24,793 nt of DNA from a virus. The DNA lies in the IMG/VR virus record IMGVR_UViG_3300005915_000106, positions 1 through 24,793 of that record; one strand, given 5' to 3'. Position numbers and translations under genes: made by a program. The notes under the pieces are model-generated. The model was given only the letters and a program-made list of their open reading frames with translations. It was not told the origin of the DNA and searched no databases. How positions within the stretch are numbered: position 1 is the stretch's first letter; every line of letters starts with the position of its first letter. This document shows positions 8,427 through 24,793 of the stretch, in pieces.

Positions 8427-8864
8427 CTATCCCCCAATTTTTGAAAGTGTAAAAACTGTCTCTTGCCCGTCGATATCCCGGCGCTCTACTTTCCATTTCT
8501 TATCGGTGTACCAGTTGTATTTTTTCCCCGTGCCGGTCGAAGGGTCGCAGTAATCGAATGAGCCCAGCGTAAAAAAATGAAAGTGCGTCGGGTCTTGGTA
8601 TGATTGCTCGGCCCTAAAATATGTAGTTCTAATAAACATCTTGCCGCCCGGCTTTACAATCCGCCAGCACTCATCAAGAAACGGAAACACAAGAATCATG
8701 TGCTCTATAATATCGGTCGCTATCACGTTATCAAATTCATTCTTCTTGAACGGCCACGGCATCACCGTCAAGTCATGCACAACGTCGGCGGCGTCGGTCT
8801 TCCGGAAATCAACATTTACGGCGTCCTTTATTCCCTTGTCTCCGCATCCGAGATTAACATTCAC
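8427..8864 (-). CDS. Class I SAM-dependent methyltransferase
   Basis: A 145-residue, compact Rossmann methyltransferase of the type found near sugar-biosynthesis genes. Motif I is VNLGCGDKG at residues 3-11 and binds SAM; VNVDF follows as the second strand, then FDNVIATDIIEH (motif IV region) and WRIVKPGGKMFI (motif VI). The start is GTG, with AAGGAG 6 nt upstream, and overlaps the glycosyltransferase stop (GTGA). At 145 residues it is shorter than usual (200-250), but the fold core is intact. Substrate unknown. Tight coupling to the glycosyltransferase suggests that they act on the same glycan. Confidence 0.85.
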   Translation of the reverse strand: MNVNLGCGDKGIKDAVNVDFRKTDAADVVHDLTVMPWPFKKNEFDNVIATDIIEHMILVFPFLDECWRIVKPGGKMFIRTTYFRAEQSYQDPTHFHFFTLGSFDYCDPSTGTGKKYNWYTDKKWKVERRDIDGQETVFTLSKIGG

Positions 8865-9865
8865 GCGATGCTCCTTTCTAAAATCTCAATCAGCCTGTCG
8901 GCTGATTTCTCCCAGGTAAAGTGTTCTCTCATTACCCATGCGGCTGTTATCCCTTTTTCAAGAGCCTCATCGTAATGAGTGTATACTTCATACATTCTGT
9001 CAACAACAGATTCTATCTTCGCCGACGGTGCAAAGCACGGCTCAAGGTCGCCGTCGTCAGGATTCATGATGTGTGTCTCAATCATTTCATACTCTACCGG
9101 ATAAGCATAGTCATTAGACGCCGTGTCGTTGGTTCCGCCGTAGGGCGTATAGATGCACGGCAATCCGGTAGCCATTGCCTCGCACAACGGCAGGCCCCAG
9201 CCTTCGCCCATGGTCGGCCATAGGAAGCAATTGGCATAATGGTACAGCGCCGCCATGGTCGGCAGGTCGCAACCCTCGGTCTCTTCGTTTGGCAATATCC
9301 GGTAATCGAGAAAGGCGTTCTTTGTTACTTGTGTGAGCTTAGGCTCTTTCTCATATGAAGTCATCTTCATTACAAGGTGCGCCTTGTCTGACAGTTCCGG
9401 GTATCGTTTGTTCCACAATTCCCACGCCTGCGCAATATGGGTAGTGCCTTTACGCGGGTTGTCGTCGCCGACAAACATGAAAGTAAACGGTTCTTTTTTC
9501 TCTCTCTCGAAATATGGGTATTGAACGGAGTCAACGCCAAGGGGGCATATATCAATCGGCGTATCTGTTGACGCTGAAAAAACCTTCTTGTTATCTGTGC
9601 ACGGCACTATAATCCGGTCCGCTTTGTCAAGAAATTGTTTCCACTGTGCAGGCACCCGGTCAAACTCGAACATCGTAAACAGCACGTTGGTTTTGAATCG
9701 CCATAGGTAGAAGCGAAAAGGAGGCATTGCCTGTAAGCATATCTCTGCACTCGCGTCCAGTTCGACACCGGCATGTATCGCGGCTTTCATCATCTTTCGC
9801 ATGAAAGTTGTATAGCCAAAGCATGAGCCGATCCCGTTGTAACTGAGTGGTACGGATACTTTCAT
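8861..9865 (-). CDS. GT4-family glycosyltransferase
   Basis: A 334-residue GT-B-fold glycosyltransferase. The C-terminal nucleotide-sugar domain shows FMFVGDDNPRKG at residues 129-140 and the retaining GT4 signature EGWGLPLCE (E221 to E229, the EX7E motif), followed by AMATGLPCIYTPYGG. The N-terminal acceptor domain begins with GIGSCFGYTTFMRKM. It would transfer a sugar from a nucleotide donor to an unknown acceptor. It sits between the tail terminator and the tail tube gene, translationally coupled to the methyltransferase, so glycosylation of virion tail proteins is one reasonable idea; modification of host surface glycan or phage DNA is an alternative. RBS GAGGAG lies 6 nt upstream of the ATG. 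Confidence 0.92.
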   Translation of the reverse strand: MKVSVPLSYNGIGSCFGYTTFMRKMMKAAIHAGVELDASAEICLQAMPPFRFYLWRFKTNVLFTMFEFDRVPAQWKQFLDKADRIIVPCTDNKKVFSASTDTPIDICPLGVDSVQYPYFEREKKEPFTFMFVGDDNPRKGTTHIAQAWELWNKRYPELSDKAHLVMKMTSYEKEPKLTQVTKNAFLDYRILPNEETEGCDLPTMAALYHYANCFLWPTMGEGWGLPLCEAMATGLPCIYTPYGGTNDTASNDYAYPVEYEMIETHIMNPDDGDLEPCFAPSAKIESVVDRMYEVYTHYDEALEKGITAAWVMREHFTWEKSADRLIEILERSIA

Positions 9866-16409: not shown

Positions 16410-17277
16410 TTTCTGCCCCCTTTAGATAATTTGCGTTTTCTCTCATGCGCACTAAAACACCATACGGTATCTCAGCCTGCACGTCGGTTTCTTCTACGGT
16501 CTCAACAGGCTCTCCCTGTGATTCCTCCGGCTCAGGCTCCCCCTGGTCGGTTTCAAAACCATGTGCCGCGATATCGACAGATTCCTTTTTGCTGAATCCT
16601 GAATCTCTCAGGAGTCCTTCAAAGTCTCTGATTGTCGCGGGCTTTTTATTTCCTTCTGCGCTTCCCTGGAATCTCTCCGGGACGTGCTTATAGGCATATC
16701 GTGAATCGATGGATATGGAAGCAGCAACCGCCTCATGCTCGACTTGCTCATCGGCAAATCCGGCCTCAACGGCCTCGTCGGCAGTAAACCATGTATCTGC
16801 ATCCATGTACTCCTTTATCTCGTCGGCGCTCAAATTAGAATGCGCCTCATATATATTTACTAATTCGCCGCCTATCTTGTCAAGCAGCTCGGCGCTTTGC
16901 CTCATGTCGTCGGCCCCGCCCATGGCAAATGTCCACGGGTTGTGAATCATGAAAAATCCTGCGGTGTCGATTGTGAGAGAAGAACCGGCAAGAGCTATGA
17001 TCGAGGCAGCGGAAGCCGCGAGCGCCATCACTTCGACAGATACCTTTTCGCGTTCGGTTGCAATAATGTTGTATATGGCAATGCCGTCAAACACGTCGCC
17101 GCCGGGTGAGTTGATGAGAATATGTATCGACGCCTTGTCCTTTATTGCGTCAAAGTCTTTCTTGAAATCCGCCGCGGTAACTGAATCGCCCCACCATGAC
17201 GCGCCGATGTCGCCGAATATCGATATCTCCGCGGTGTCTTCTTTCGCCTGAATCTTATACCATTTTTTCGATTTCAC
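16387..17277 (-). CDS. Head maturation protease, ClpP (S14) type
   Basis: A ClpP-like serine protease that should cut the capsid N-terminal scaffold segment. Signature elements are ISIFGDIGASWWGDSV, IHILINSPGGDVFDGIAIYN (the oxyanion-loop NSPGG), MALAASAASIIALAG with the nucleophilic serine in AAS, and GFFMIHNPWTFAMG with the catalytic histidine. The C-terminal 80 residues are Glu/Asp-rich and may be self-processed. I chose the GTG at 17277 because AGGAGG lies 5 nt upstream; an ATG at 17313 lacks a comparable site and would overlap the portal further. Overlap with the portal gene is 23 nt, and with the capsid gene also 23 nt. Confidence 0.94.
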   Translation of the reverse strand: MKSKKWYKIQAKEDTAEISIFGDIGASWWGDSVTAADFKKDFDAIKDKASIHILINSPGGDVFDGIAIYNIIATEREKVSVEVMALAASAASIIALAGSSLTIDTAGFFMIHNPWTFAMGGADDMRQSAELLDKIGGELVNIYEAHSNLSADEIKEYMDADTWFTADEAVEAGFADEQVEHEAVAASISIDSRYAYKHVPERFQGSAEGNKKPATIRDFEGLLRDSGFSKKESVDIAAHGFETDQGEPEPEESQGEPVETVEETDVQAEIPYGVLVRMRENANYLKGAENAHKTES

Positions 17278-18556
17278 TTTCCCCTCCTGCTCCGCCTGCA
17301 TCGCCGCCGCCATTCTTTGCCGCGTCGCTCGCAGCGTCCATCATGTTCGACGGTTGCCAGAATCGTCTACCTATTTCTTCGTCGTCAATCGGATTCATGC
17401 CGATAGCAAAGCGGCCCTCGTCGCCGTTAATGAGTCCGGCAAAGCGGCCTATCCGCTGTGTTTCCATAACCGTTTTCATATCGCCCCGCTGCAGCTGGTT
17501 CATGTCATGCTGCGCAAAACCTTTTTTTCTCTCGATAGGCGTGAGCAGTTGCGTATCAACCGCTTTCTCGAAACGCTCCGCCCATGGTCTCAGCGTGTCG
17601 GTAATCCATTCAATCTGCTGGTGCTCGATATTTGAAAATGTTGCGTTCGTCAAATCTTTGAGCTTGTGAAGCGGCATGTTCAGAATGCGTGCCATTTCGC
17701 TGAGTTGAAAAATCCGGCTTGCGAGATATTCGGCGTCGGCCATAGACATTGAAAACGGCGTGTAGGTCATGCCCTCTTCAAGTACAATCACTTTACCGGC
17801 GTTACTTGATCCGCCATATGCGCTAGCGAAAGATTCCTTTAGGGTTTCCTTTGCCTCGGGAGATAGCGATTCCGGATGTATGAGTGCACCCGAACTATTT
17901 ACGCCCTTATCGATAAAGCTGTTTGAAAAGTTCTGCTGTGATAGCCCGAGCTTGACCGCTTCCCTGTGGAGCGTTATCAACGAGTACCCGGTATATGCAT
18001 CCGGCCCAAACCCGGAAAGGTTAAATATCTCGGTATATGATAATGGGCGCTCTCCGCCTTTCTTCGGGCGGTACAGATATACCGGCTCGCCCGAATCTTT
18101 TACCTCAACCCGCATACGCGCCGGGTCGAGCAAGTATACCGCGGTCGGTCTGCCGTAAGTATCACGCTGAACATATGAATATGAGTTACCCCAGTTGATA
18201 GCCTGCATGAATACTGACTCGCGCCACTTAAGAGAATTGACAAACGGGTTCGCCATGCTGTTCATGACGCCGTAAACTGGATGCTCCGCCCATCGCCTCC
18301 GCTTCATTTCGCCTTCGCGTCTCAGTAATGGGCACGCAACCGACGCGAGTGACTGCGATATCTGCATCACCCCGGAAAAGTAGGCGGTGTATGCCATCGC
18401 GCCGGGATCGTGGCCGGCTTGTGTGGAATCCATCCACCTGCCCATGTCGTCAAGAGATTGCGGAGACCACTGGCCTGATGCGCGGAAGACACTTAAGGCC
18501 GCGCGGAATCGTTGAGTTAAGTTAAGGTTTCGGGAGTTTTGCCTTGCTTTCGCCAA
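17255..18556 (-). CDS. Portal protein, HK97 family
   Basis: A 433-residue portal that would form the dodecameric DNA-packaging channel. Typical elements are HPVYGVMNSMANPF, FMQAINWGNSYSYVQRD, YLLDPARMRVE, EIFNLSGFGPDAYTGYSLI, the stem region NFSNSFIDKGVNSSGAL, and FQLSEMARILNMPLHKLKDL followed by the FSNIEHQQIEWITDTLRPW helix. The C-terminus is Gly/Ala/Asp-rich. The start is TTG with CGGAG 6 nt upstream. Unlike most phages, where the portal directly follows the large terminase, about 1.6 kb of guide-array cassette separates the two. Confidence 0.96.
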   Translation of the reverse strand: MAKARQNSRNLNLTQRFRAALSVFRASGQWSPQSLDDMGRWMDSTQAGHDPGAMAYTAYFSGVMQISQSLASVACPLLRREGEMKRRRWAEHPVYGVMNSMANPFVNSLKWRESVFMQAINWGNSYSYVQRDTYGRPTAVYLLDPARMRVEVKDSGEPVYLYRPKKGGERPLSYTEIFNLSGFGPDAYTGYSLITLHREAVKLGLSQQNFSNSFIDKGVNSSGALIHPESLSPEAKETLKESFASAYGGSSNAGKVIVLEEGMTYTPFSMSMADAEYLASRIFQLSEMARILNMPLHKLKDLTNATFSNIEHQQIEWITDTLRPWAERFEKAVDTQLLTPIERKKGFAQHDMNQLQRGDMKTVMETQRIGRFAGLINGDEGRFAIGMNPIDDEEIGRRFWQPSNMMDAASDAAKNGGGDAGGAGGESEIEKMV

Positions 18557-18640: not shown

Positions 18641-18658
18641 AGCCCCCTTTCGGGGGCT
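18641..18658 (-). terminator. Hairpin terminator at end of second guide array
   Basis: The minus strand reads AGCCCCC-GAAA-GGGGGCT, a perfect 7-bp stem with a GNRA-type tetraloop, followed by TTCCC, so the U-tract is weak. The 5' arm is shared with the last, altered repeat box AAGCGAGCCC (18663-18654). It closes the transcript of the guide-array/tas cassette before the portal gene. Confidence 0.7.
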
Positions 18659-18807
18659 CGCTTTATCTGACTGGGTTCCTTCCGGAATCTGGCTCGCTTC
18701 AGATTTGTGGTTTACTCATATGGGTTGGCTCGCTCCAGCAATCTGGTTTTCTCCCGGGTTTTGGCTCGCTTTTGTCTAATGGTTTTCTTGAAAGCCCTGG
18801 CCCTCTT
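18654..18807 (-). repeat. TIGR-type guide array 2 (four 36-nt units)
   Basis: Read on the minus strand, box 1 (AAGCGAGCCA) begins at 18807, 18771, 18735 and 18699, with a closing copy AAGCGAGCCC at 18663; spacing is exactly 36 nt. Box 2 follows each box 1 after 8 nt: AAGAAAACCA, GAGAAAACCA, GAGTAAACCA, AAGGAACCCA. Box 1 variants are AAGAGGGCCA (first, decayed) and GAGCGAGCCA. The 8-nt variable pairs are GGGCTTTC/TTAGACAA, AAACCCGG/GATTGCTG, ACCCATAT/CAAATCTG and GATTCCGG/GTCAGATA. All pairs differ, as expected for guides and not for structural repeats. The first box begins one base after the stop codon of the tas gene, so array and gene share a transcript. Two conserved and two variable segments per 36 nt match dual-spacer TIGR arrays. 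Confidence 0.88.
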
Positions 18808-18808
18808 T

Positions 18809-19717
18809 CTAAAACACCCAACCTCTTTCAGTCGGGCTTATTATTCCCGTATGTCCTAAATACTCCTCTGCGTATAGCGAGCGTGTCGGGAGTCCTCGAA
18901 TAGTTCTGCCGACAAACCAATAATCTGCAAGTATATGTTTCATAACTGCCCGTAATGCCGCGCCATGTCTGTGGCATGGCTTCGTATCTTTCCAGGCTAC
19001 CTCGACAAGCATTCCTTGCGTGTTCCTGCTCTTTGTTATTTTCTCGCTTATCGCCAGCCGCTCCTTGGTCCTGTCGTACACTTCCCGGTATGCGCCGCGA
19101 GTTTTCATCATTGAATCGGCGGTCCTCCACAGGGCGGTTCTGAGTTTCTTATTCCCGCCACCCGCTTCGCCTTTAGTATATCTTTGATGGCTCGCGGTAT
19201 GCAGTCCGGTGTAACTCCAGGTAGCCGACGCGGTAGTTGCTTTTTCGAGATCGATATAAACCGAGAGATACGCGACGGTCATTTCCCCGAGCCCCTTAAC
19301 GCCCATGGCTGACTTGATAAGTGAATCCTCCTCTTGGTGCTCTTTGATCCACTTAACAATCTGCTTCTCTGCATCAACGAGAATGGGCAAAACCTCATCA
19401 ACCGCGTTTCCGAGATGCTCCTCGGTTTCTTCTCTTGAGTAATCAGTCCTCCGCTTGAAGGCGAGTAGTTGATTATTGATTTTGTTCTTCAGCTTCAACA
19501 TTTGCTCCCGGTCGTCAATCAACGCCTTAAGTTCGTTGTGGTCCTCTTCTCGCAACCGGAGAATGCCATGCTCCTCCATGTGTGCTACCGGGTCAACGAC
19601 TTCATAGTTGTCGGGGTCATACGTCCCGCCTTGCGCCTTCGGTTTCGCCCGGTGCGTGTCGTACTCTGCAAAATCTTTTGTAATTCCTTTCGCCTCTTTC
19701 AGTGCTACTTTTGCCAT
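18809..19717 (-). CDS. tas: TasA-like Nop/IS110-type RNA-guided DNA-binding protein
   Basis: A 302-residue protein flanked on both sides by 36-nt dual-spacer arrays. Residues about 1-55 are a charged N-terminus, 55-130 are helical/coiled (NELKALIDDREQMLKLKNKI and on), and 135-265 resemble the C-terminal domain of IS110-family transposases, which is related to the Nop domain: a helix-hairpin-helix-like GVKGLGEMTVAYLSVYIDLE (139-158), then WSYTGL (167-172) and AGGGNKKLRTALWRTADSMM (185-204), where the IS110 pattern is 'kG...lRraL..aA'. The RuvC-like DEDD half of IS110 proteins is absent, and no HNH motif is seen, so it fits the nuclease-less TasA class and not TasR or TasH. It would bind 36-nt guides and DNA without cutting. 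RBS AAGGAG, 6 nt before the ATG. The alternative reading is a decayed IS110-like transposase, but the arrays argue against it. Confidence 0.85.
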   Translation of the reverse strand: MAKVALKEAKGITKDFAEYDTHRAKPKAQGGTYDPDNYEVVDPVAHMEEHGILRLREEDHNELKALIDDREQMLKLKNKINNQLLAFKRRTDYSREETEEHLGNAVDEVLPILVDAEKQIVKWIKEHQEEDSLIKSAMGVKGLGEMTVAYLSVYIDLEKATTASATWSYTGLHTASHQRYTKGEAGGGNKKLRTALWRTADSMMKTRGAYREVYDRTKERLAISEKITKSRNTQGMLVEVAWKDTKPCHRHGAALRAVMKHILADYWFVGRTIRGLPTRSLYAEEYLGHTGIISPTERGWVF

Positions 19718-19745: not shown

Positions 19746-20043
19746 TGGCTCGCTTTAAAATCTTGGGTTCCTTACGTTGAATGGCTCGCTTAGGTCAATT
19801 GGGTTTCTCGCAGCTTGTAGCTCGCTTGAGCGATTTGGGTGTCTTAATCGATGTGGCTCGCTTGCAATAAATGGGCGTCTCATAGTCTTTGACTCGCTTA
19901 AGCAGCATGGGTGCTTTATCGTAAGTGGCTCGCTTAATGGAAATAGGGATCTCCGCTCGTTTGGCTCGCTTGCGCCCATTGGGGTTCTCTCGTGACGTGG
20001 CTCGCTTAAAAAAAATGGGTGTCTTACTCTGCCTGGCATAAAA
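19746..20043 (-). repeat. TIGR-type guide array 1 (eight 36-nt units)
   Basis: On the minus strand, box 1 (AAGCGAGCCA, with single changes such as AAGCGAGTCA and AAGCGAGCTA) begins at 20007, 19971, 19935, 19899, 19863, 19827, 19791 and a closing copy at 19755; spacing is exactly 36 nt. A decayed box 1 (only GCCA kept) precedes these at 20043. Box 2, consensus RAGNNNCCCA, lies 8 nt after each box 1. The 8-nt variable pairs are GGCAGAGT/TTTTTTTT, CGTCACGA/ATGGGCGC, AACGAGCG/TTTCCATT, CTTACGAT/TGCTGCTT, AAGACTAT/TTTATTGC, CATCGATT/AATCGCTC, CAAGCTGC/ATTGACCT and TTCAACGT/AGATTTTA. Both boxes share the form RAG....CCA, so the unit is an imperfect dimer of 18 nt. The array lies between the cassette promoter/leader and the tas gene. 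Known TIGR guides are about 36 nt with two short spacers, which is the same geometry. Confidence 0.9.
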
Positions 20044-20084
20044 AAAGCCCCTCCATCTTGTGTCCCGTGGTGAGCGGGGTGGCT
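20040..20084 (-). terminator. Terminator-like hairpin / possible attenuator before array 1
   Basis: The minus strand shows AGCC-A-CCCC (20084-20076) pairing with GG-A-GGGGCT (20054-20046), giving eight GC-rich pairs with one bulged A on each side, followed by a run of seven T (20046-20040). The T-run merges into the decayed first box of array 1. As an intrinsic terminator it would cut the leader transcript before the array. It may end a short RNA or limit array expression. Confidence 0.55.
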
Positions 20085-20159
20085 CCGTGAGAAACCAATA
20101 ACACAAGCCTGGAAAGGCCATTTTTCTCACGGAATCTGTATCGCCGGGCACCACCCAGC
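20085..20159 (-). ncRNA. Structured leader RNA of the guide-array cassette
   Basis: Between the promoter and the terminator-like hairpin lies a noncoding stretch of about 75 nt. It contains a perfect 11-bp inverted repeat (20123-20133 with 20084-20094; core CCGTGAGAAA) enclosing a smaller perfect hairpin GCCT-N4-AGGC (20107-20118). Near its 5' end is GGGTGGTGCCC, another short stem. Together with the following hairpin the leader would be strongly folded. The 11-bp and terminator hairpins compete at base 20084. Its function is unknown: an attenuator leader, a separate small RNA or a processing signal for the array are all possible. Confidence 0.5.
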
Positions 20160-20165
20160 ATCATC

Positions 20166-20194
20166 ATTATTGCATATGGCGTGCCCGCTGTCAA
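20166..20194 (-). promoter_or_regulatory. Strong sigma70-type promoter for the guide-array/tas cassette
   Basis: The minus strand reads TTGACA (20194-20189), a 17-nt spacer, and AATAAT (20171-20166). The -35 is the full consensus and the -10 matches TATAAT at five of six positions. It begins 3 nt after the large terminase stop codon. Transcription would start near 20159 and run into the leader and array 1. It is the best promoter I see in the window. Confidence 0.85.
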
Positions 20195-20197
20195 GGG

Positions 20198-21892
20198 TTA
20201 AAACGAAAGCACCTCGACGCCGTGGTCCTCATATACGCTGCGCTTCTTGACATTCCTCACCGCCATTTCCAAAGCCATGAGCTGAGAAAACACCGCGTCT
20301 ATGTGTTTGCTCGATTGTCGTGTCTCGGGTTTGACCGGCCTGATGTTTCCATTCGTGTCGCGCTTTATTTCGGCGTTACTTACTTCCCACGATACCACCG
20401 GGTTAGGCAATACCGATAGGGTTTTGTTAATCACTTTTGTTTCGAGGTTCTTTGCCGCAGGTGATATCAGCTTCCATCCCTGCGAAAACTCGACAAGGTA
20501 TTTCTCCCATCCAAGTTTTTCAAGGTTGGCTACAAACTGCGATGAGTTAAAGGGATCAAAGGCTATCTCTTTGATATCATATAGATCCATATCCTTCTCA
20601 AGTTCCGCCTGGATGAAATCATAATCGATGGTACGCCCCGGCGTGAGTATGCAATGATTATCCTCTGCCATCTTCCGCCACTCGAAACGCTCCTTTTTCT
20701 CGCGCTCCGCTATGCCGTACCCGGGTAGGAATATCTTTGTAAACATTCTAAACCCGCCCTCCCATGCAAACGCGAGCGAATAGGCCGCGGTATCGATCAC
20801 GGTAGCCAGGTCAATCCCGGCACACGCGGGCGCGCCTTTCATTTCCTCTATGTCAAACTGCTTTTCGATCGCCGACCAGTCAGTATCTTTAATCCAGCCG
20901 AAGCGGTTCTTTGTCCAGATATTGAGATTCTTGTTTTTGAATTTGCTTTGCTCGCTCGCCATGTCGAGAGCTTTTTGAAAGTCGCTCTCTATTGCCTTTA
21001 CTTTCTTGCTCACGCCGAGACAGGGATTAGCTTTCAGCCATACGCTCTTGTCGGTCCATTCATCTTTTTCGTCGAGCGTGTAGATAATCCCGAAGTAAGT
21101 TTCATTCGTTGCCTTTTTGCTGAGTACCCGCTGTGCATATTCTTCCTCATCAACACACGGTACGTCCGGGTCAAAGCCTGCGGTAGTGATAATAATAGTC
21201 ATCGGTTGCGCTCGGGACGACATACCATCAGACATAATGCGGTACACACCGTCGGTCTTATGCGCGTGGTATTCGTCGATGATTGCACAATGCACGTTTC
21301 TACCGTCAAGGGAATCCACGTCTGCAGCAACGGCCTTGAATGAGGAGGTTTCTGTATCGGCGTCTGTAAGTGCATGCCTGGAAAGTTTTATAACTTTTTG
21401 TAATTCTTTATTCTTTGCAACCATGGCGCGGGCATAGTCGCTGAAAACGATCCGCGCCTGTTCTTTTGTCGTAGCCGCTGAGTAAACTTCTGCTCCGCCC
21501 TCACCGTCAGCAATCAGCATGTAAAGAGCGATTGCCGCTACCCATGTACTCTTCCCGTTCTTCTTCGCTACCTCGATAAACACCGTCCGGAACCTGCGGT
21601 AATCGTCCCGGTCAAGCCATCCGAAAATAACCCATGTAATGAAAATCTGCCACGGCTGCAGGATAAGCGGCTTCTTGTCGAGCTCCCCTTTCACGTGCAC
21701 GCAGTAATAATGCACAAACTCAATTACATGCTCGGCTCTCGCCTCATCGAAGTGATACGGAAACTGTTCGGTATCCTGTTTTTTCAGATTGTCTTTATGC
21801 CGCTTCGCCGCGAGCTTCACCCACTTGCAGGCTACTACCTCGCCGGATAGAACATCGGTTATATACTTTTCAGCGGTCTGTTTTATGTTCAT
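20198..21892 (-). CDS. terL: Terminase large subunit
   Basis: A 564-residue packaging motor and nuclease of the HK97/P27-partner type (Terminase_1). The ATPase domain has Walker A VAKKNGKST (about residues 108-116) and Walker B AIIDEYH with D206 and E207, plus a C-motif-like IIITTAG. The nuclease domain has the RNase H-like acids GIDLA (D361), AFDPFNS (D446) and HIDAVFSQ (about D530). The start overlaps the PAPS-reductase-like gene (ATGA). The stop is followed at once by the promoter of the guide-array cassette. It cuts and pumps the phage DNA through the portal. Confidence 0.96.
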   Translation of the reverse strand: MNIKQTAEKYITDVLSGEVVACKWVKLAAKRHKDNLKKQDTEQFPYHFDEARAEHVIEFVHYYCVHVKGELDKKPLILQPWQIFITWVIFGWLDRDDYRRFRTVFIEVAKKNGKSTWVAAIALYMLIADGEGGAEVYSAATTKEQARIVFSDYARAMVAKNKELQKVIKLSRHALTDADTETSSFKAVAADVDSLDGRNVHCAIIDEYHAHKTDGVYRIMSDGMSSRAQPMTIIITTAGFDPDVPCVDEEEYAQRVLSKKATNETYFGIIYTLDEKDEWTDKSVWLKANPCLGVSKKVKAIESDFQKALDMASEQSKFKNKNLNIWTKNRFGWIKDTDWSAIEKQFDIEEMKGAPACAGIDLATVIDTAAYSLAFAWEGGFRMFTKIFLPGYGIAEREKKERFEWRKMAEDNHCILTPGRTIDYDFIQAELEKDMDLYDIKEIAFDPFNSSQFVANLEKLGWEKYLVEFSQGWKLISPAAKNLETKVINKTLSVLPNPVVSWEVSNAEIKRDTNGNIRPVKPETRQSSKHIDAVFSQLMALEMAVRNVKKRSVYEDHGVEVLSF

Positions 21893-23353: not shown

Positions 23354-24727
23354 TTAAAACGTTCGTAATATTCCGTTACAGTCTTTCATATATTCAAACC
23401 CCGCCGTACCGGGTTCAATTTTCTCATAGTACCTGCTCGGTATTTTGCTCCGGACATATTCGGATAGCCGTGACTGAGATACGTTTGCCGTCTTGCTGTT
23501 GAACACAATACCCTTATAGTCTACGTCTCCAGCATATCTATTTACCAGCATACGCTTTATGACTGCATATCCTGCGGTTATTCCCGGACGTATTGTCAGG
23601 CGGATAGAGTCGCCATCATAAAGCGTACCGGGACTGATGTAATCAGTATAGCTGTATTCACAAGACGGTTTTTCATACTGCATCGGCGTGCACATTTCGG
23701 CGGAAAACGGGTTGAGTTTTAACGCGATGTATAGTTTAGCATCAGCCTTTCTGTCTAACTCAGAAACCATTTTTGTCAGCGCCGCGATATCGCGCATAAC
23801 CGTATCCGGTGTTTCCCACGGAAAACCTATAATACAATTGCAGATAAGCGCGACGCCGCCCGATACGGTATCAAGTATTTCCGCTATGGTGTTTTTTACA
23901 TCCGCATCCTTGAGCGGTCGGTTTACCCGATGCCGCGTTTCTTCCGTAAGGCCATCGAATGCGCTTATGTACATCCCCGGCTTTTTAATGTCTAAGTAAT
24001 TCCAAAAATCTTCTACGTGCTTCCCGCCCTGTGCTGTATAGTGCTGATTGGTTTTCCGTGTCCAGGTATACTGACAGTAAGCACACCGCATCTTGCAGCC
24101 GCAGGCCGATTCTCCCGGCATCAGATATTTATATTTTCCATATTCATATTCTCCCTCGATATCCGGGTCTTTGCTCTTCCTCCACACGTTCGGGAAGTCT
24201 GCCCCGGCGAGGATAAAGTTAATCTGCCCCTCGGCCCTGCCCCACACCGCAACGTCGATATAGTCCTTTACTACCTTGATGTTATGCACTCCCGCTCCGC
24301 CGATGATTATCTCTGCGTTTCTACTTTCCGGTGCCCTTGTTTCGAGAGAAAAAATGAGGTTTTCGATATCATACACCGACGTGATCGGTACAAGGATATT
24401 GTCATATTGATTTATTTGTTCAGGAAAGCAGAAGTCATAGGGCCGGTTTATCTCGCCAAGGATTCCGCGCAACCCGAGGTATGGCAAATCTCCGAATGTC
24501 TTGCCGCCTATCTTTCGGCGCTGCGTAAAGTCTGACAGCATGAGCACGGCGGTATCTGCGCGATTGCGCTTTACAAGGAGGTTGGGAATAAACTTAAATG
24601 ATAAATCTTTCCCGCGGCTCACGGCGGTCCTGCACTCCCGGCACGCCCCCTCGTATATGCCGCGATCCTTTCTGTAGTAAAATGCTGACAGAGGCTTTAG
24701 CTGTTTGCACTTCGTACACTTTTTCAT
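23354..24727 (-). CDS. Radical SAM protein with N-terminal zinc ribbon and B12-binding-like region
   Basis: About 457 residues from the ATG at 24727; an open frame extends to 24790, but GGGGG 13 nt upstream of the ATG and the zinc ribbon right after it favour the shorter form. Residues 4-32 hold CTKC...CREC, a ribbon common in phage DNA-associated enzymes. At 140-170 IIIGGAGVHNIKVVKDYIDV and VWGRAEGQ resemble the 'GG......d.vv.GegE' part of B12-binding radical SAM proteins. The cluster motif is CKMRCAYC (C211, C215, C218; CX3CX2C), followed by ISAFDGLTEETRHRVNRPL and CNCIIGFPWETP, typical for the radical SAM barrel. Substrate unknown; methylation or another C-H modification is plausible. It lies directly upstream of the packaging genes. 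Confidence 0.85.
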   Translation of the reverse strand: MKKCTKCKQLKPLSAFYYRKDRGIYEGACRECRTAVSRGKDLSFKFIPNLLVKRNRADTAVLMLSDFTQRRKIGGKTFGDLPYLGLRGILGEINRPYDFCFPEQINQYDNILVPITSVYDIENLIFSLETRAPESRNAEIIIGGAGVHNIKVVKDYIDVAVWGRAEGQINFILAGADFPNVWRKSKDPDIEGEYEYGKYKYLMPGESACGCKMRCAYCQYTWTRKTNQHYTAQGGKHVEDFWNYLDIKKPGMYISAFDGLTEETRHRVNRPLKDADVKNTIAEILDTVSGGVALICNCIIGFPWETPDTVMRDIAALTKMVSELDRKADAKLYIALKLNPFSAEMCTPMQYEKPSCEYSYTDYISPGTLYDGDSIRLTIRPGITAGYAVIKRMLVNRYAGDVDYKGIVFNSKTANVSQSRLSEYVRSKIPSRYYEKIEPGTAGFEYMKDCNGILRTF

Positions 24728-24793
24728 ACGATTATCATAACCCCCTACAAAATAACTTTCTAATCTGCAATTTTGACCGCGTGCACGCAAGCC

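Follow-up and report, generated by a model that had tools for sequence, protein, structure and literature searches.

A self-contained leader transcription unit, composed of a promoter, a structured leader and a terminator-like stem, appears to precede the TIGR-TasH module in the phage DNA analysed here (the window, 24,793 nucleotides). We see about an even chance that this unit works as an attenuator which also yields a discrete small RNA. The leader itself is probably a real and undescribed RNA control element, because the same layout recurs in unrelated TIGR-Tas phages.

The window is a phage late cluster, with terS, a PAPS-reductase-like gene, terL, and the portal, protease, capsid and tail genes all on the (-) strand. 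The TIGR-Tas module sits on the same strand between the end of terL (20198) and the start of the portal gene (18556), with the following features in the order of transcription:

20198..21892, (-), terL, the upstream neighbour of the leader, with its stop codon at 20198-20200
20166..20194, (-), sigma70-type promoter TTGACA-17-AATAAT with extended TG, 11/12
20143..20159, (-), 5′ hairpin GCUGGGU/GCCCGGC, 7 bp, beginning at the predicted +1
20123..20133, (-), 5′ arm of stem 1, UCCGUGAGAAA, a perfect 11-bp stem with a nested hairpin
20101..20119, (-), 5′ arm of stem 2, GGCCUUUCCA followed by CUUGUGU, in the loop of the 11-bp stem 1
20084..20094, (-), 3′ arm of stem 1, UUUCUCACGGA, inside the loop of stem 2
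20064..20078, (-), hairpin CCCG/CGGG enclosed by stem 2
20046..20063, (-), 3′ arm of stem 2, ACACAAG followed by UGGAGGGGCU, ending at the U-run
20040..20046, (-), T-run of seven, predicted to be the tail of an intrinsic terminator, ~3 nt ahead of unit 1 of the array
19757..20044, (-), TIGR array 1, 8 units of 36 nt with edge AAGCGAGCC and loop ..AACCCA, upstream of tasH
18809..19717, (-), tasH, TIGR-associated Nop-domain protein with N-terminal HNH, a 302-aa ORF assigned by phmmer to PDB TasH
18664..18807, (-), TIGR array 2, 4 units, downstream of tasH
18641..18663, (-), end of array 2, a 3′ truncated edge repeat and the hairpin AGCCCCCGAAAGGGGGCT
17255..18556, (-), portal gene, the downstream neighbour of the TIGR module

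The guide array that the preliminary description had placed behind the leader is genuine, as it is the TIGR array of a TasH-type system. The encoded protein carries a Nop domain and an N-terminal HNH, matches PDB TasH 21kl over residues 20-301 (phmmer, E 6.5e-108), and has residues D20, R23, N37, H46 and H50 that are invariant across relatives. Beside its gene lie dual-repeat arrays of 36 nt with a truncated 5′ edge at the start, where the edge of the first unit of array 1 is shortened to ..GCC and overlaps the leader T-run, and with a 3′ truncated edge and terminator at the end, where array 2 terminates in AAGCGAGCC-CCCGAAAGGGGGCT and its hairpin is followed by just three T. Dual-repeat 36-nt TIGR arrays, the TasH protein, truncated edges and a terminator 3′ of the array are described in the consulted parts of PMC12045711 (Faure et al. 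2025), and, judged by its letters, the module of the window is of this architecture. In TasH of the window and of its relative L002, the N-terminal segment QNGKC..L preceding the HNH core is missing, while it is present in most other TasH proteins. Open frames running over leader and array (e.g. 19795-20154), considered as a possible leader peptide, follow from the unit length of 36 nt, which equals 12 codons, and no frame matching that of the window was seen in the leader of L009. Elsewhere in the window, the ORF at 23354-24790 (-) joins an N-terminal endonuclease VII/HNH-like segment to an apparent radical-SAM-type protein (CKMRCAYCQY), with PHROG matches spanning its first ~60 residues alone, and methyltransferase-like and glycosyltransferase-like ORFs were noticed by eye within the tail cluster at 8427-9865 (-).

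The promoter directly behind terL was found as previously claimed. Its full-consensus -35 element TTGACA (20194-20189) begins 3 nt after terL and is separated by a spacer of 17 from a strong extended -10 element, TG-C-AATAAT (-10 hexamer at 20171-20166). With 11 of 12 matching positions, it is the sole site in the window reaching at least 11/12, where 0.275 are expected per 24.8 kb on both strands. The structured leader between the promoter and the seven T is ~119 nt long, and its fold is more stable than that of 200 dinucleotide shuffles (z -3.8, 0/200). The perfect 11-bp stem with a nested hairpin (20133-20123 with 20094-20084), the GC-rich hairpin followed by seven T before the first unit (20046-20040) and the base common to both stems (A 20084) were likewise all recovered. 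On the other hand, the idea that two local hairpins sharing this base are the alternatives did not hold. The fold containing both of them, obtained by forcing stem 1, is suboptimal (-42.2 kcal/mol), and the true competitor is a long-range terminator stem of 17 bp, stem 2 (20119-20101 with 20063-20046), which gives the best full-length fold (-48.7 kcal/mol). Neither this stem nor the 7-bp hairpin, whose first base coincides with the predicted start at 20159, is mentioned in the preliminary description. In the predicted fold stems 1 and 2 interleave, so they either compete or form a pseudoknot. Stem 1 gives the best fold as long as the transcript measures 80-105 nt, and by ~110 nt stem 2 has become dominant. 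Since a hairpin remains in front of the seven T in the stem-1 as well as in the stem-2 fold, the two folds need not amount to a clean on/off switch.

In the window, no promoter site of at least 9/12 was found between the seven T and tasH, the best reaching 8/12. Transcription of array and tasH would then have to pass the terminator-like stem by read-through. In L024 and L065, two of the related loci presented below, a weak 9/12 site lies between leader and tasH, and in L005, L009, L012 and L019 the ~20-nt gap is too short for a promoter. The positions of promoter and stems, the folding order by free energy, the recurrence of the layout, the covariation within a sister class and the finding that the window has no convincing promoter further downstream are computed results, and they can be combined into the following scheme. 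Polymerase would start at ~20159 and make a compact RNA of ~119 nt, with the 5′ hairpin followed by the pair of interleaved stems. The first to fold would be the 11-bp stem 1, and once the T-run is reached, its loop would pair with the freshly made RNA, forming stem 2 as an intrinsic terminator. The majority of transcripts would end there as a discrete small RNA, while array, tasH and the second array would be reached solely by the read-through fraction or by late transcripts from upstream. As a consequence, the leader would set, and may regulate, the amount of guide RNA and nuclease. The start site, the termination efficiency, the extent of read-through and any signal altering it are what we infer here.

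The layout is not confined to the window. Searches with TasH returned about 28 distinct loci, and promoter, leader and terminator were found in this arrangement at 8 of them, distributed over three TasH clades. Besides the window, it stands upstream of the array or of tas in L005, L009 (Salicola phage CGphi29), L012, L019, L024, L065 and L076. About 20 of the 28 loci have no leader, including L002, the closest relative of the window TasH, so that TIGR function does not require the leader. The order in L024 is the same as in the window (terL, terminator, promoter, leader, array, tasH, portal), and a separate terminator lies ahead of the leader promoter in both L009 and L024. In L076 the upstream genes are on the opposite strand, so the module there needs a promoter of its own. 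The leader can also lie between array and tasH (L012, L019) or between promoter and tasH (L009, L005), and in L065 a short open frame separates it from the array.

A blind scan covered both strands of 801 kb of loci and asked for a stem that runs into at least five T and has a pseudoknot partner upstream. Its best 8 matches were all leaders, with scores of 47-71 (L012, L019, L028, L029, L009, window, L076 and L024), whereas shuffled DNA of equal size gave 5 matches, the best scoring 45; the thresholds were set after examples had been seen, and the remaining sequence and the shuffles serve as the control. The leader of L065, where the scan stem absorbs the stem-1 arm and the T-run is short, was assigned by eye, and that of L005, also with a short T-run, was found solely by a relaxed scan. 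A near-perfect inverted repeat of 23 bp with a short T-run at L018:900-960 likewise scored high solely when short T-runs were allowed. Furthermore, a promoter of at least 9/12 with its -10 element 6-8 nt before the first helix is present in the window, L009, L012 and L029, and at 0.7% of random spots. Chance hairpins, or a degenerate array terminator without a regulatory role, would therefore be a most improbable explanation: other TIGR arrays end in an edge and a terminator (PMC12045711), so terminators are common in such modules, but the element described here follows a promoter on the 5′ side of the array, and both the blind scan and the covariation presented below go beyond chance.

By sequence, the leaders fall into three classes that have the layout in common and nothing else. 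These map to TasH clades: class A (100/99), class B (99/98, with some members leaderless) and the class of the window, whose nearest relative L002 is leaderless. As the classes follow separate clades, the layout was either gained more than once or has diverged past sequence recognition. A scan with a class B motif returned already known loci and no new ones. In L091 (11268-11313) and L092 (13435-13480, (-)), another hairpin-terminator leader, CCGTGAGAAAC/GTTTCTCACGGGC with eight T, sits just ahead of where a BRO/KilA-N-like gene starts, and its stem letters are common with stem 1 of the window, perhaps by chance.

Class A comprises five members, L009, L012, L019, L028 and L029, the last two on contigs without a Tas gene. 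These two elements, obtained by a pattern scan, lie in phage head-gene clusters between the minor head and protease genes, and a divergent element in a head-gene cluster of L027, again with no Tas on the contig, was matched by the class A covariance model R1 (E 3.8e-5). Leaders are thus not exclusive to guide arrays; they are also found where tasH alone follows, and in clusters of head genes whose contigs carry no Tas gene. Just 3′ of the class A element of L028, at 2000-2105, there is a second small promoter-like and terminator unit with GGCTGACAGAAACCATCTGAGGCC. Pattern matches in genome contigs (L036-L059), considered as prophage copies, all looked like chance, as did the blastn matches in PaMx25 and Serbin, which are within coding sequence. 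A search with R1 gave no match in 398 Pseudomonadota genomes, a set without a positive control.

In the class A alignment A3, based on five sequences, 99.4% of cells are paired, 11 of the 32 pairs are doubly substituted and none of 500 shuffles was as good, while slid structures reach at most 46% paired. In L028 and L029 most positions of P1 and PK1 were dictated by the search pattern, and support for these two helices comes from L009, L012 and L019 alone; the pattern left stem 2, P3 and PK2 free. The second pseudoknot, PK2, formed between the linker and the P3 loop, covaries as well: its summed length is 34, while 2000 shuffles averaged 18.8 and did not exceed 28, and mismatched partners reached at most 26. 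In this class, both of the interleaved stems can be formed at once, as a pseudoknot. The conservation and covariation earlier proposed as a check are therefore found in related leaders of other phages, while the window leader itself is represented solely by identical sequences (L001 and L003, 100% identical to the window). For terL of the window, the close relatives found were just an identical contig and a second at 35%, and R1 does not match the window leader, which has the same layout but belongs to a different sequence class. No Rfam 15 family, whether riboswitch, ribozyme or phage RNA, was matched at gathering or permissive thresholds, either by the window leader or by the class A leaders. 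A Pistol-like ribozyme was considered for its similar-looking order of elements, and Rfam gave no pistol match.

The main rival to the attenuator reading is a trans-acting small RNA. Such an independent phage gene (an RNA "moron") would consist of a promoter, a pseudoknotted RNA of ~105-119 nt and a terminator, would act in trans or bind a protein, and would have TIGR merely downstream, expressed with the late genes. The promoter start, the first helix and the U-run fit the RNA ends exactly, the tertiary contacts (two pseudoknots) are conserved, and class A occurs in head-gene clusters without Tas (L027-L029). However, most members have the U-run right next to the first array unit or ~20 nt ahead of a start codon, as in a cis leader, no trans target is known, and the three sequence classes are alike in layout alone; we hold this rival to be rather doubtful. 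Alternatively, binding of a ligand, Tas or tigRNA could stabilise stem 1 or the pseudoknot and alter termination, a switch that we consider unlikely. The mutual competition of the stems in the window and the strong conservation of class A (GGCUGU..CAGGCC, an A-rich linker and AACUG..ACCGG, in L028 and L029 partly imposed by the search pattern) speak for it, but class A is also found away from tas genes, and neither an Rfam match nor a ligand or binding site was identified.

Returning to the attenuator, a broader and more tentative possibility is that phage TIGR-Tas modules have repeatedly recruited undescribed pseudoknotted, terminator-ended leaders which gate guide and nuclease by a signal such as the Tas protein, tigRNA or infection stage, with the same RNA class controlling other genes of head clusters. 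Published TIGR work, as far as the consulted parts go, relied on heterologous expression; a promoter, leader and terminator before array and tas would be a concrete, testable control point for native TIGR expression. A double-pseudoknot phage RNA that is absent from Rfam and occurs both beside TIGR and away from it would add a new family of structured RNAs, open to assays of termination control or of ligand binding.

In regard to known systems, the late leader pR'-tR' of lambda (6S RNA) has a strong promoter, a short structured RNA and an intrinsic terminator, with downstream genes expressed by read-through, and it needs the Q protein at the promoter. By sequence, the window leader resembles it in having a promoter, a short RNA, an intrinsic terminator and no later promoter, but it differs in position, and we know of no interleaved stems in lambda 6S RNA. 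Among the window genes examined, on a contig that is a fragment, no Q-like gene was identified. In type III toxin-antitoxin systems (ToxIN), RNA repeats of ~36 nt and an intrinsic terminator lie between promoter and protein gene; there the repeats themselves are pseudoknots and the terminator follows them, while in the window it is ahead of the array.

The put RNA of HK022, composed of two stem-loops (PMC9378689), is also a phage RNA that is structured, lies close to a promoter and governs termination. A put-like element making polymerase terminator-resistant, and thereby shielding the untranslated array, would accord with a promoter-proximal structured RNA followed by such an array, and putL is also located just after its promoter (PMC9378689). 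Yet put has no terminator of its own and acts on distant ones, whereas the window leader, in place of two adjacent stem-loops without a terminator, has interleaved stems ending in seven T, making this origin very unlikely. Finally, the TasH-type TIGR-Tas systems of PMC12045711 have the same 36-nt dual-repeat arrays, TasH and a terminator after the array. Truncated edges and a 3′ terminator are described in the consulted parts of that paper, where no promoter, leader and terminator before array or tas are described and the authors report that no accessory RNA was found. Its SpTIGR locus is that of Salicola phage CGphi29, in which a class A leader was found in the present analysis.
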